Assembly (NCBI GenBank): GCA_016214055.1
Contig: JACRPE010000016.1
Span: 1 to 34,807 of the forward strand
Length of the DNA stretch: 34,807 nucleotides
Source: Candidatus Roizmanbacteria bacterium
GTDB taxonomy: Bacteria > Patescibacteriota > Microgenomatia > UBA1406 > GWC2-37-13
Reading direction: 5' to 3'
The position numbers and the translations under genes were made by a program. Of the stretch, positions 7,144-27,133 are shown piece after piece (position 1 is the stretch's first letter; each line of letters begins with the position of its first letter). The notes under the pieces are model-generated. The model did no database searches, was not told the origin of the DNA, and saw only the letters and a list, made by a program, of their open reading frames with translations.

Positions 7144-8352
7144 AATTGCCTTCAGGATGGCGTCTTTAAATTGTTTTTGAGAATACAATTTAGATTGTTC
7201 TTGAGCCTTGGAGCCAAGTTGTTTTCTTCCTGCCGGATTGTTTATGTATTTTTTTATTACCTCAGCCACCATTGTAGGGTTTTCAGGGTCAACAAATTCG
7301 GCGTTCGCGCCTGCAATTTCGTGGAAGATGGGGCGGTCGGAGAGGAGGGAAGGGCAACCCAAAGAGGCTGCTTCAACATAGGAAAAACCAAAGCCTTCGT
7401 CGCGTGATAACAATATGTTTAAACATGCTTGTTCATATAATTGTATCAACTCGTTATCCGAAATAAACCCGGGGAAAATGAAGCGCTTATCATCTTTTGC
7501 CAGGGAGAGAAATTCATTCAGTTCTTTTTGCCAGAGATTATTTGTTTGCAATAGATTCTGACGCTCATGCTTTCCCACCAGTGCTCCCCTCTGAATCGGA
7601 GGGTGCGCGCGTGTTGGGATCCCTGCATTCGCGCCACCTATTGCAAGCTTGTCATCCTGAACTTGTTTCAGGATCTCAAATACTTTTCCAACAAATATGC
7701 AGGGTACATCCGCAAGCTTAATCGCGCGGGCAACGTTGACGAGATTTTTATTCCATGTTGCATCGCCGACGTAAATACAAAAATTTGAAAAGGAACCAAT
7801 ATTTTTGTTTGTCATCCCGAGCGGAGTCGAGGGATCCCTCCACTTCTCCGACGTAGCGTCGGAGTCGGTCGGGATGACGGATAAGGGGGATTCTGAAATA
7901 AATTCAGGATGATCTACAAATATTTTTGGTAAACATGGGTAAATAATCTTAATTTTATTCTCATCAATACCTAAGATATCAACAATGTCTTTTTTACTTA
8001 CTTCAGAATCGGTGATGACTTCATCGTAGTTTCTAAGGGCCAATTTATTCAAAAAGATATTTAGTTTCCCCTTCAAACCAACGGGAAAATGAGTGAGATA
8101 TTTGAGAGGAATCAAGTCGTGGATTACGGCAACCTGCTTTTTTGCCACGCGGAACATCGTCAACGGAGGTTGAAGGAGGTTGAAGAAAGGATTTACAAAA
8201 ACAGTTGGTAGTTCATAGTTTATAGTTGATAGTTGATCGGTGAAAGTAAATTCATCCTTGAAGTTCTCACGGAGAATTTGGAGGTATCTGCCGATGCCAC
8301 GCACTTTACTTTTGTCATCTTGTAACGTAGGGTCAAATACGGTCACATTCAT
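7138..8352 (-). CDS. GT4-family glycosyltransferase with repeat-encoded inserts
   Basis: A 404-residue GT-B glycosyltransferase of the group 1 (GT4) type, probably adding a sugar to a surface glycan; donor and acceptor cannot be told. The N-domain has VRGIGRYLQILREN and VAVIHDLIPLKY. The C-domain has FCIYVGDATWNKN, FIFPGFISDNEL, the donor-site motif SRDEGFGFSYVEAASLGCP and PIFHEIAG. Three stretches are foreign to the family and coincide with DNA repeats: QLSTINYELPT (five AGTTxxT heptamers, 8203-8237), a segment containing WRDPSTPLGMT (7811-7878), and EILKQVQDDK followed by a Gly/Ala/His-rich stretch (about 7570-7676). A TAAAAT box 6 nt before the ATG suggests a leaderless start. Confidence 0.85.
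   Translation of the reverse strand: MNVTVFDPTLQDDKSKVRGIGRYLQILRENFKDEFTFTDQLSTINYELPTVFVNPFFNLLQPPLTMFRVAKKQVAVIHDLIPLKYLTHFPVGLKGKLNIFLNKLALRNYDEVITDSEVSKKDIVDILGIDENKIKIIYPCLPKIFVDHPEFISESPLSVIPTDSDATSEKWRDPSTPLGMTNKNIGSFSNFCIYVGDATWNKNLVNVARAIKLADVPCIFVGKVFEILKQVQDDKLAIGGANAGIPTRAHPPIQRGALVGKHERQNLLQTNNLWQKELNEFLSLAKDDKRFIFPGFISDNELIQLYEQACLNILLSRDEGFGFSYVEAASLGCPSLLSDRPIFHEIAGANAEFVDPENPTMVAEVIKKYINNPAGRKQLGSKAQEQSKLYSQKQFKDAILKAIS
7583..7676 (+). repeat. palindromic repeats inside the glycosyltransferase gene (1)
   Basis: This stretch holds an imperfect hairpin around CTCCCCTCTGAATCGGAGGG, the sequence GGGATCCC, and GTCATCCTGAAC...TTTCAGGAT (7651-7673), a dispersed-repeat end type (GTCAT...). 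It is read in frame as a non-family segment of the protein. Confidence 0.65.
7811..7878 (+). repeat. palindromic element with GTCATCCCGA ends, in the glycosyltransferase gene (2)
   Basis: Outer arms GTCATCCCGA (7811-7820) and TCGGGATGAC (7869-7878) are perfectly complementary. An inner hairpin CTCCGACG-TAG-CGTCGGAG lies at 7846-7864. The element is read through in frame. Confidence 0.85.
8203..8237 (+). repeat. five AGTTxxT heptamers inside the glycosyltransferase gene
   Basis: AGTTGGT, AGTTCAT, AGTTTAT, AGTTGAT, AGTTGAT in uninterrupted tandem. On the coding strand they encode STINYELPT. Confidence 0.85.
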
Positions 8353-15892: not shown

Positions 15893-16047
15893 GGTTGTAT
15901 TCTACAATATATAAAAAAGAAAGAGTTTGCGGATTAGCAGGAGGAATGCGGGGAGTAGTTATTGAGGACGAGAGTGCGGCTGTTCATGAATGTAATTATA
16001 AGGAAGGACCTGATAAATCACAACATTAAATTATATTCCGCAACATC

Positions 16048-16077
16048 CATTCCAGTGAAACACTTCACTGGATCAAG
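16048..16077. repeat. CCAGTGAA-ACAC-TTCACTGG element, intergenic copy
   Basis: The perfect 8-bp hairpin lies at 16052-16071. With its flanks (ATTCCAGTG...CACTGGATCAAG) it matches 20740-20768 inside queA over about 29 bp with one or two differences. The rest of the 15893-16180 gap holds the thyA promoter and otherwise nothing I can name. Confidence 0.8.
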
Positions 16078-20028: not shown

Positions 20029-21143
20029 TCCGGATAGAAGACTACGAATACGATCTTCCTCCTGGGCTCATTGCAAGGCAGCCCGCGGTGCCGAGGGACA
20101 CATCACGCCTCTTTATCTACGACACACAAAAAAATAAGATAACTTTCGATTATTTTTATAATGTTGTAAATCATCTTCCCGAGAACTCATTCCTTGTTCT
20201 TAACGAAACCAAAGTTCTTCCGTCTCGGGTCGCGTTGACAAAAGCACTGGGTGGTAAAGTTAATGTCTTCTTTCTTGTGAATGAGCAGATGGATGATCCA
20301 AATACCATGAGAGTGATGGTTGATCGTAAGGTTAAGATAGGGGATAAGTTATTTTTCAATAAAGAAGATTCAGTGGAAGTGATTGCACAAGACAAACATC
20401 TTTTTACGGTGAGAATTCCTTTTGGAAAAAATCGATTGTTTCAACTACTTGAACAAAAGGGGACCATGCCCGTCCCTTTGTACATAAAAAATTCACCCCT
20501 GAGCCGGGATGAGCTCAGGCAAAAATATCAGACCATCTTTGCTCGCCAAAATGGGTCGGCGGCGGCTCCAACGGCCTCTTTACACTTTACCGAAGATGTA
20601 TTTATGTCATTAAAGAAAAAAAATATTGAACGGTTTTTCATCACCCTTCACGTGGGATTGGGTACGTTTGCCCCAGTGAGCGAAAAGAACATTTCTGAAA
20701 AAAAACTACACGAAGAATGGTATGAAATTCCTGAAAACATATTCCAGTGTAACACTTCACTGGATCAAGAGAAAAAGAGGCTTGTGGCCGTTGGGACGAC
20801 GGTTGTGAGGACGCTTGAATCGATGAGTCTGTCATTGCGACCCTCCGAATCGGAGGGGAAGCAATCTAATAATAAGATTGCCGCGGCCCCTTCGACTGAT
20901 GCTCAGGGTCCTCGCAATGACACTACTTTTAAAACAGATCTTTTTATTTATCCGCCCTACGAGTTCAAAATGGTGGATCATCTCATCACTAACTTTCACC
21001 TTCCCGGGTCGTCACTAATGATGTTGGTTGAGGCTTTTTTACAGCATAAAAAGGCCAAAAGGAGCTTAATTGAACTGTATCAGGTGGCGATCATGGAAAA
21101 GTTTCGGTTTTATTCATTTGGGGATGGGATGTTAATATTGTGA
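20025..21143 (+). CDS. queA: S-adenosylmethionine:tRNA ribosyltransferase-isomerase (QueA)
   Basis: A 372-residue QueA (usually about 340-350). It transfers the ribosyl part of SAM to preQ1 in tRNA, forming epoxyqueuosine. Family blocks are clear: YDLPPGLIARQP at the start, FLVLNETKVLPSRV, FARQNGSAAAPTASLHFTED, ITLHVGLGTFAPV, VAVGTTVVRTLES, and NFHLPGSSLMMLVEAFL. Two repeat-derived inserts occur: a short one (FQCNTSLDQ) from the CCAGTG/CACTGG element, and a longer one of about 30 residues (starting LRPSESEGKQ) from a 91-bp palindrome at 20831-20921, placed between the RTLES motif and the next conserved strand (FIYPPYEF). tgt lies 0.7 kb downstream. Confidence 0.95.
   Translation: MIRIEDYEYDLPPGLIARQPAVPRDTSRLFIYDTQKNKITFDYFYNVVNHLPENSFLVLNETKVLPSRVALTKALGGKVNVFFLVNEQMDDPNTMRVMVDRKVKIGDKLFFNKEDSVEVIAQDKHLFTVRIPFGKNRLFQLLEQKGTMPVPLYIKNSPLSRDELRQKYQTIFARQNGSAAAPTASLHFTEDVFMSLKKKNIERFFITLHVGLGTFAPVSEKNISEKKLHEEWYEIPENIFQCNTSLDQEKKRLVAVGTTVVRTLESMSLSLRPSESEGKQSNNKIAAAPSTDAQGPRNDTTFKTDLFIYPPYEFKMVDHLITNFHLPGSSLMMLVEAFLQHKKAKRSLIELYQVAIMEKFRFYSFGDGMLIL
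20740..20768. repeat. CCAGTG...CACTGG element inside queA
   Basis: Nearly identical to 16048-16077. CCAGTG (20744-20749) pairs with CACTGG (20758-20763). Read in frame as FQCNTSLDQ. Confidence 0.8.
20831..20921. repeat. 91-bp composite palindrome inside queA
   Basis: Outer arms GTCATTGCGA (20831-20840) and TCGCAATGAC (20912-20921) are perfectly complementary. Inside are CCCTCCGA-A-TCGGAGGG (20841-20857) and GCAATCT/AGATTGC (20861-20881). It is translated in frame as a foreign loop of QueA. Confidence 0.9.
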
Positions 21144-21867: not shown

Positions 21868-23064
21868 ATGACATCTTTTTTTTCCGTACATCAACGTTCT
21901 CAAAAATCACAGGCACGTTTGGGAACCATAACCACTTCACATGGAAAAATCCAGACCCCGGCGTTTGTCCCGGTGGGTACGAAGGGGACGATTAAGGCTC
22001 TGACTCCTTCTCTTATCAAAGATATTGGAGTGCAAGTATCTTTTGTAAACACCTATCATCTCGTGACGCATCCGGGTCCGGAAATAATTGCAAAAGCGGG
22101 AGGTATTCACACTTACAGCAAAATGAACATTCCTCTCATGTCTGATTCGGGAGGATTTCAGGTCTTTTCCCTCGCACAAAATAGTCGAAAAGCTAAACTC
22201 AGGGCTGACGATTCTGAATCACCCCTTGTTGAAAAGATATCTGAGGATGGGGTGAAGTTTCGATCCCTCTATGACGGTCAACTCATCGAATTCACCCCTG
22301 AGAAATCCATGGAATATCAACGGCAAATTGGGGCGGATTTACTCATGGCTTTTGATGAGTGTACTTATTATCCCGCGACGCATGAATATGCGGAGAAGGC
22401 TTTGATGCGAACTCATGAATGGTTAAAAAGATGTATTGCCTATAAAAAAACTCGACACGATGTTTTTTGTCCGCCTCACCCTAAAGGGGCCCAGGCGATT
22501 GACAAAAAACACATGTCTTCGTTTTTTCATGAGCAATATTTATATGGAATAATTCAAGGAGGAACTTTTGAAGATCTGCGTGTTGCATCAGCAAAATTTA
22601 TCGCGGAACAGGATGTGCCAGGAGTTGCAATCGGGGGGGTGTCGGTGGGGGAGACGAAGGAGGAAATGCGGGAACAGGTCAAATGGATAGTTCCATACTT
22701 GCCCGCGGATAAACCGGTGCATTTGTTAGGAGTGGGGCAGATAGACGACATCATCGACCTGGTCAAATACGGCATCGATACGTTTGATTGCGTTGAACCT
22801 ACGAGGTTGGCGAGGATGGGCGTCATTTATTCCCATTCAAATAAACAAATTGACATCAATAAAAGCATTTTCAAGGCGGACTTGACGCGGGTGGACGAAA
22901 AATGTAGCTGTTACGTCTGCCAAAACTTCACCAAATCCTATTTACATCATCTCTTCAAACAACGCGAAATCCTCGGTTACACTTTGGCGACGTATCATAA
23001 TTTGTGGGTGATGGAGAAATTGATGGAAAATATCCGCGAGATGATATTGCAAGGAAAGATATAA
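21868..23064 (+). CDS. tgt: tRNA-guanine transglycosylase
   Basis: 398 residues from the ATG at 21868 (MTSFFSVHQRSQKSQARLGT). It exchanges guanine-34 for preQ1 in GUN anticodons, the step before QueA. Hallmarks: LMSDSGGFQVFSL (base-binding Asp and substrate pocket), DLLMAFDECT, GIIQGG, AIGGVSVGE, the nucleophile region GIDTFDCVEPTRLAR, and the zinc site CSCYVCQ...H near the C-terminus. A short extra segment (QNSRKAKLRADDSESPLVEK) follows FSLA. An in-frame ATG at 21841 lies upstream of a TATACT box (21851-21856) and is rejected. The 3' end lies 5 bp from that of the convergent lipoprotein gene. Confidence 0.95.
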   Translation: MTSFFSVHQRSQKSQARLGTITTSHGKIQTPAFVPVGTKGTIKALTPSLIKDIGVQVSFVNTYHLVTHPGPEIIAKAGGIHTYSKMNIPLMSDSGGFQVFSLAQNSRKAKLRADDSESPLVEKISEDGVKFRSLYDGQLIEFTPEKSMEYQRQIGADLLMAFDECTYYPATHEYAEKALMRTHEWLKRCIAYKKTRHDVFCPPHPKGAQAIDKKHMSSFFHEQYLYGIIQGGTFEDLRVASAKFIAEQDVPGVAIGGVSVGETKEEMREQVKWIVPYLPADKPVHLLGVGQIDDIIDLVKYGIDTFDCVEPTRLARMGVIYSHSNKQIDINKSIFKADLTRVDEKCSCYVCQNFTKSYLHHLFKQREILGYTLATYHNLWVMEKLMENIREMILQGKI

Positions 23065-25921: not shown

Positions 25922-25934
25922 ATAGGCTATTTAA
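25922..25934. repeat. ATAGGCTATTTAA direct repeat, copy 2
   Basis: Identical to 25310-25322, 612 bp apart in the same orientation, bracketing the 181-residue gene. The fmt stop codon lies within this copy. Confidence 0.6.
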
Positions 25935-27133
25935 GTGAAGATGTTATATGCTTTTTGAAAAGTGGGGAAGTCAACGGGGGATTTGCCTTCGAGTTGGACG
26001 GATTTTATGCGTAGAGACGGGGCATGCCCCGTCTCTACATGATATTCCATGTCAATTATTTTTAAGCGTTTTCCTGCCAGTTTAACCTCCGAGGTTTTAT
26101 CATTCTGGAGGGTGTCTAACCTCGGAGGTTCTCCCTCTATCAAAGTCCAGAGGCCGGGCCAAGGATGCATACCGCGCCAAAAATCATAGATAGTCTTCGA
26201 TGATCTCTGTAGTAAATTCTGTACTTTTTTCCGCTCAGGCGCGTCTTCTCGTACATGCATCAAGCTAGTAGACGTTGATGGTGTTTCAATAGTTGGCGGC
26301 CCCGCATGCCATGTACTCGAATCCGCACCTTTCGCTTGTTCAACATAATATTTTTCCACATATTTCCGAATAATTTGCGGTAATTCCTGGAGGGTAAGGG
26401 GTTCATTCTTCAGTGCTTTTTGAAGAACGGGGAGGGGAATGAAGCCGTCTTGTTTGGTCATGTAAGGAGCTCTTGTTGATTGTTTGTGTAGTTGTGGCTT
26501 ATAGGTTAACGCGTTAACGGGTTCACGGGTTAACGAGTTAAGAAACTTTTTCACCATTTCAAATCCCAAATCAGTCAGTTTGGTTTCCATATCAGATCTG
26601 ACGTCGGTTAATGTTATCGCCATTTCTTCCTGAGCAATTATTGGTCCATGATCCATTTTTTCATCCATTACAAATAGGGTAACTCCCGTTTTATTTTCAC
26701 CTAGTAAAATCGGATAAGCGATAGGGGAGGAGCCTCGGTACCGGGGGAGTAGTGAAGGGTGGATATTGACAAATAACTGCATCTTTGGGGCTCTCAAAAG
26801 GTCTAAAGGTATAAGTTGTTTGAAACCAAAAGCATATACTAAGCAGAGGTCTAAATTTGAAATTTTTAATTTTAAATTTGAATTCAAATTTCGAATTTCC
26901 CTACGTTCCTCAGGGTAAACAAACTTCAAATTATCAAACACGGGAATGTTGTACTTCTGTGCCACCACCTTCACAGGCGAGGGCGTCATAACCATCTTTC
27001 TCCCCACGGGTTTGTCCGGTTGGGTGACGACGAGGGCGATTTCAATTCCCAAAGACTTATCCAATATGAGTTTTTCAAGAAGGGCTGCGGAAAAGCTTGG
27101 ACTGCCAAAATAAGCTAACTTGAGTTTAGGCAT
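25931..27133 (-). CDS. fmt: methionyl-tRNA formyltransferase with many repeat-encoded inserts
   Basis: A 400-residue Fmt (usually about 310). It formylates initiator Met-tRNA using 10-formyltetrahydrofolate. Core motifs are intact: LAYFGSPSFSAALLEKL, VTQPDKPVGR, VNIHPSLLPRYRGSSPI (catalytic Asn/His and the SLLP loop) and FVMDEKMDHGPII (catalytic Asp). The C-terminal OB-type domain is recognisable (YDFWRGMHPWPGLWT, LRIKSVQLEGK). At least four segments are foreign and coincide with repeats: RNLNSNLKLKISN (26852-26897), NSLTREPVNALT (26505-26544), PPRLDTLQNDKTSE (26084-26130) and VETGHAPSLR (26011-26038). A Thr/Ser-rich stretch before the C-terminal domain is also extra. Its ATG is 7 nt from a minus-strand TATAAT. 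Confidence 0.93.
   Translation of the reverse strand: MPKLKLAYFGSPSFSAALLEKLILDKSLGIEIALVVTQPDKPVGRKMVMTPSPVKVVAQKYNIPVFDNLKFVYPEERREIRNLNSNLKLKISNLDLCLVYAFGFKQLIPLDLLRAPKMQLFVNIHPSLLPRYRGSSPIAYPILLGENKTGVTLFVMDEKMDHGPIIAQEEMAITLTDVRSDMETKLTDLGFEMVKKFLNSLTREPVNALTYKPQLHKQSTRAPYMTKQDGFIPLPVLQKALKNEPLTLQELPQIIRKYVEKYYVEQAKGADSSTWHAGPPTIETPSTSTSLMHVREDAPERKKVQNLLQRSSKTIYDFWRGMHPWPGLWTLIEGEPPRLDTLQNDKTSEVKLAGKRLKIIDMEYHVETGHAPSLRIKSVQLEGKSPVDFPTFQKAYNIFT
26011..26038. repeat. perfect 28-bp palindrome inside fmt
   Basis: GTAGAGACGGGGCA followed directly by its exact reverse complement, with no spacer. It is read in frame as VETGHAPSL. Confidence 0.92.
26084..26130. repeat. AACCTCCGAGGTT / AACCTCGGAGGTT inverted pair inside fmt
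   Basis: The two 13-mers (26084-26096 and 26118-26130) are exact reverse complements, and each is nearly self-complementary. They are 21 bp apart and read in frame. Confidence 0.88.
26505..26544 (+). repeat. five GTTAACGG-type octamers inside fmt
   Basis: GTTAACGC, GTTAACGG, GTTCACGG, GTTAACGA, GTTAAGAA in uninterrupted tandem, encoding part of a foreign loop. Confidence 0.85.
26852..26897. repeat. AAATTTGAAATTT low-complexity repeat inside fmt
   Basis: Alternating AAATTTGAA / TTCAAATTT units, the same composition as the ssb-rpsR spacer (2747-2779), coding for the NLNSNLKLKISNL insert. Confidence 0.8.

Follow-up and report, generated by a model that had tools for sequence, protein, structure and literature searches.

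A formyltransferase gene in a Roizmanbacteria genome carrying several unrelated dispersed repeats in frame

We analysed a window of 34.8 kb, which is a whole contig of a small Patescibacteria genome of the Microgenomates type (1.2 Mb, 26 contigs). Its fmt gene is best read, with a probability of roughly 80%, as an intact, loop-tolerant gene that has repeatedly captured, in frame, unrelated and mostly palindromic short dispersed repeats. The repeat load of fmt is ordinary in kind and unusual in degree. For comparison we used two congeners (G001 and G002) and many other genera within the family. The features discussed below are as follows.

25931..27133, minus strand: fmt, methionyl-tRNA formyltransferase, 400 aa, intact reading frame.
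26899..26938, minus strand: insert 1a, aa 66-79 (FDNLKFVYPEERRE), a dispersed element around CCCTGAGGAACGTAGGG, with copies in its own genome.
About 26850..26898, minus strand: insert 1b, aa ~79-95, an AAATTTGAA run adjoining insert 1a, with partial matches in its own genome.
26504..26541, minus strand: octamer array GTTAACnn, aa ~198-210 (LNSLTREPVNALT), collinear in G001 and G002.
26348..26437, minus strand: clade-wide segment, aa 233-262 (LPVLQKALKNEPLTLQELPQIIRKYVEKYY), from the relatives' alignment.
26232..26339, minus strand: insert 2, aa ~265-300, a copy of a ~105-bp imperfect palindrome, best-matching core 26242-26327.
26084..26130, minus strand: insert 3, aa ~335-350 (EPPRLDTLQNDKTSEVK), the AACCTCCGAGGTT/AACCTCGGAGGTT pair, arms 26084-26096 and 26118-26130.
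26011..26038, minus strand: insert 4, aa 366-375 (VETGHAPSLR), a perfect 28-bp palindrome, coding phase 0.

The family core of the protein is intact, as an earlier note on this DNA had stated. The two Fmt domains follow one another in the expected order and score above their cut-offs (PF00551 at aa 5-192, 110.9 bits; PF02911 at aa 309-395, 40.1 bits), and the ten best solved structures in a fold search are all Fmt. H125 and D161 are invariant among 29 relatives and N123 is nearly so; we take these to be the Asn/His/Asp catalytic residues, from what we know of E. coli Fmt. The protein misses the TIGR00460 equivalog cut-off (179.2 versus 201.5 bits) because the inserts break the match, which is confined to aa 5-249. 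Annotators should be warned that repeat-derived length drops a clear Fmt below a curated cut-off. The reading frame is open through every insert. Identities to the G002 gene at the three codon positions are 0.69/0.78/0.41, with fourfold sites near saturation (30/91 identical), and the core is therefore under purifying selection. We found no Fmt match in nine of 56 relatives (G011, G017, G037 and G055, all estimated to be 90-95% complete, and five less complete genomes). Since four genomes of that estimated completeness have no match, part of the clade may be able to do without formylation, and calling fmt an 'essential-type' gene, as had been done, needs care.

Fmt proteins of the relatives span 287-409 aa. 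The window protein is indeed longer than usual, though by less than the 90 or so residues first proposed: it lies about 77 aa above the relatives' median and 85 aa above a 315-aa Fmt. We divided the excess among anchored segments by comparing window length with the relatives' median. The AAATTT loop after IPVF contributes 12 residues (28 versus 16 aa), the octamer segment one (15 versus 14), the inter-domain linker 40 (79 versus 39), the AACCTCC site between GLWT and KRLK 16 (24 versus 8), and the palindrome hairpin before VQLEG five (19 versus 14). The four repeats to which the excess had been attributed thus account for about 34 of 74 residues; the linker alone holds more than half, and its repeat had been missed. 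All five regions differ in length among relatives. The stretch aa 233-253, by comparison, has a constant length across the clade and, as far as the relatives' alignment tells, is an ancient clade feature.

The AlphaFold model of Fmt has a mean pLDDT of 88.5, with most of the core above 90. Confidence falls mainly at the three largest inserts (aa 71-80, 271-300 and 331-350), and the 28-bp palindrome lengthens a confidently modelled beta-hairpin. The model supports loop positions, as had been predicted for all the repeats, for the palindrome, the AACCTCC pair, the CCCTGAGG/AAATTT composite and the ~105-bp element, which are absent from most relatives; the octamers form no insert. The earlier note would have been refuted by close relatives sharing the segments; this applies to the octamers, which recur in both congeners, and in part to the AACCTCC pair, which recurs in one, but not to the other segments.

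The 28-bp palindrome at 26011-26038 is perfect, as described, and rarer in shuffled sequence. Eight copies are found in its own genome, where the hosts include genes for the CCA-adding enzyme, PheT, asparagine synthase and transketolase; there are none in G001 or G002. As an insert in fmt it was seen in this one species alone. Within the class it is present in 14 of 373 genomes. Across the class, 14 of the 25 copies examined lie within long ORFs, and 13 of these 14 share one phase, reading VETxHxxSL (binomial test, P ~9e-4).

The largest insert, the linker copy of the ~105-bp element, had gone unnamed. The same genome contains seven further copies (one partial), with none of the seven inside a long ORF, and G017, from another genus, contains seven copies and a fragment; no copy was found in G001 or G002. 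Fourteen aligned copies form an imperfect palindrome with compensatory pairs in which both sides have changed, and the fmt copy retains one pair through a double change. Two of the G017 copies lie inside the genes for acetyl-CoA synthetase and hexokinase, on the same strand and in the same frame as in fmt (TSLMHxRED). The copies in these two genes and in fmt are stop-free, whereas most others have stops in the corresponding frames. An Rfam search gave no match in the fmt region and, at five loci with the element, only two sub-threshold matches, both outside it.

The AACCTCC inverted pair (26084-26096/26118-26130) is likewise real and rarer in shuffled sequence. In its own genome it occurs in fmt only. 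The alignment places it in the fmt genes of the window and of G002, and shows it absent from G001 and other relatives. In the G002 gene (L050) the second arm is altered symmetrically, from AACCTCGGAGGTT to AATCTCGGAGATT, which preserves the palindrome. In another Roizmanbacteria genome of the same family, G008, all eight pairs lie in frame within ORFs, mostly reading TSEV...KTSEV. A scan of genome contigs also found the arms in Ignavibacteria, Thiotrichaceae, Bacteroidetes and others. Among the matches listed for the whole scan, at least 116 pairs are non-coding versus at least 15 coding, a distribution that is a lower bound and is dominated by a few genomes. The compact hairpins outside Patescibacteria have the same two 13-bp arms as insert 3 of fmt and, among the matches listed, are mostly 31-32 bp long and outside long ORFs, whereas the G008 pairs have a longer spacer and are all coding. 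We know of no named family for these compact AACCTCCGAGGTT/AACCTCGGAGGTT hairpins.

What the earlier note had described as one AAATTTGAA run is present at about 26850-26898 and rarer in shuffles, but the loop is, on its sequence, a composite of this AAATTT run with a second dispersed element. That element, insert 1a around CCCTGAGGAACGTAGGG, has four other copies in its own genome (97-98% identity over 38-43 bp) and is absent from the aligned G002 fmt. The AAATTT run of insert 1b has about 20 further partial matches in its own genome and, being of low complexity, is weaker evidence of an element. The octamer array at 26504-26541 is real too, though the least striking against shuffling (its count was reached in 1 of 100 shuffles), and the family occurs at about 14 other places in its own genome. 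It does not hold up as an insert: the segment aligns without gaps in both G001 and G002, with no net length gain over these congeners. We therefore rejected an insertion in the window's own lineage and consider the octamers older than the genus split.

We examined how exceptional fmt is in an unbiased self-comparison of a 435-kb sample of its own genome (386 ORFs), blind to fmt; the samples covered at most about a third of each genome. It replaced a comparison with TGT as an insert-free gene, which we dropped because TGT loops also show lineage-specific length variation. No dispersed-repeat segment was found in 364 of the 386 genes, while fmt has four, from four families; the only gene to equal it is a repetitive one of 3,236 aa. 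The length-scaled Poisson expectation for fmt is 0.07 segments (P ~1e-6, a value to be read in light of fmt having been picked for its repeats in this first genome). In the searches for four of the fmt segments elsewhere in the genome, reversed control patterns gave zero matches. The claim that several unrelated repeat classes meet in frame in one conserved gene is thus borne out. In the G002 sample, 361 of 366 genes carry none, fmt and transketolase share the top position, and queA has one segment. In G039, from another family, fmt is within the top four of 248 genes; the genes adjoining it are also repeat-rich there, so the outlier effect may be partly regional. Since fmt is repeat-rich again in two related genomes, it seems to be a site where such elements land, or are tolerated, time and again. 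Genes make up about 90% of the own-genome sample, yet the copies outside long ORFs amount to about half for the 28-bp palindrome and nearly all for the ~105-bp element; there is therefore no enrichment for coding sites.

Other genes carry such segments. In the window's own genome the transketolase gene is hit by three families and queA by one. The transketolase (L060 811-2706; C1:47892-49787) contains the inserts KFQISNFKFQIPK, VETCHGMSLQ and GMDSRLRGND, and the G002 transketolase has two.

The capture reading can be put as follows. Hairpin-forming elements of unrelated families, apparently non-autonomous and presumably moved by a mobilising enzyme, would land at many sites, and genic copies would survive only if in frame, stop-free and placed in a loop. 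In Fmt the tolerant loops would be those after the IPVF strand, at the end of the domain-1 helix, in the inter-domain linker and at two places in the C-terminal domain. Because the loops of Fmt tolerate inserts, its gene would, along with transketolase and queA, collect inserts whose families differ from lineage to lineage. The elements would be selfish DNA; the insert peptides in the loops are probably translated, and we infer that they are roughly neutral. Concentrated as they are in a few conserved enzymes of related species, these families offer a natural series of in-frame insertions for studying the route of selfish DNA into proteins, the kinds of loop that accept it and any special susceptibility of reduced genomes.

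The best-known examples of protein-coding palindromes come from Rickettsia and Wolbachia. Published accounts describe the Rickettsia palindromic elements (RPE) as dispersed palindromes of ~100-150 bp, found between genes and in frame in housekeeping proteins, with several families per genome (Ogata 2000, 2002, reviewed in PMC2229807, PMC10969869). The comparison with RPE drawn in the earlier note is apt: the window repeats are also dispersed, mostly palindromic and in frame within conserved proteins, probably translated, and the ~105-bp element comes close to RPE in size and behaviour. However, the host belongs to another phylum, the other families are shorter (28-60 bp), and four families meet in one gene. 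We suggest that the window elements work like RPE, as selfish palindromes in frame and filtered for loop positions, but do not file them as such, because the host is a member of Patescibacteria and the likeness considered here is one of behaviour. Intragenic REPs have also been reported, including genes with two hit sites, and GTAG-type REPs have a GTAG tag unpaired at one end (PMC3733652). The 28-bp palindrome also begins with GTAG, but this GTAG is paired with a CTAC, the palindrome (26011-26038) being complete and having no unpaired tag, and we rejected it as a GTAG REP proper. In the literature searched, mostly outside subscription journals, we found no relevant report on protein-coding palindromes in Patescibacteria or on Fmt in candidate phyla.

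Third-position identity in two of the segments exceeds a simple neutral-decay prediction: it is 13/16 in the AACCTCC insert (window versus G002), and the octamers show 10/11 when the window is compared with G001, against ~0.4 in the core. One might suppose that fmt, transketolase and queA do not simply tolerate the elements but are preferentially targeted by them, with unrelated palindromic families inserting or homogenising in a few Roizmanbacteria-type housekeeping genes and being conserved at the DNA level beyond the needs of the protein. We consider this unlikely; if true, it would call for a targeting or gene-conversion process of a kind that has not been described for either RPE or REP. 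The same identities, together with the symmetric change of the G002 arm and the double change that keeps a pair in the ~105-bp copy of fmt, could also mean that the inserts are more than tolerated, being kept for a DNA- or RNA-level role or renewed by gene conversion. However, the sites are few and were picked post hoc (P ~7e-4 and 2e-3), and most inserts differ among species, so that we give this explanation little weight.

It is very improbable that fmt is decaying and that inserts pile up since Fmt is no longer needed in the lineage. The nine relatives without an Fmt match and the low TIGR00460 score would fit such a course, but the open frame, the retained invariant residues, the codon-position identities and the saturated fourfold sites speak against it; the open frame and codon-position constraint also make a pseudogene unlikely. 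Hardly credible, finally, is the idea that the added length consists of old Fmt features or of ordinary fast-drifting loops that resemble repeats by chance: aa 233-253 is clade-wide, the octamers are common to the genus and all five regions vary in length, but four segments have near-identical or significant matches in their own genome, and neither the reversed controls nor 364 of the 386 genes have any.

Repeat-derived or repeated segments were also seen in further genes. In-frame repeat peptides occur in a class I tRNA synthetase (SVILNSFQDLQKIPKQVRND; L252 3404-5587) and a thymidylate kinase (GHPELVSGSQNKMPKQVRHD; L238 15006-15755). Within the window, tgt (22455-22527) and a glycosyltransferase gene (7646-7680) each contain one segment repeated elsewhere, and a segment of queA (20722-20769) matches window positions 16030-16077. 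In two relatives the tgt frame contains a single in-frame TAA (G035:C22:29327-30607 and G010:C26:5789-6412).
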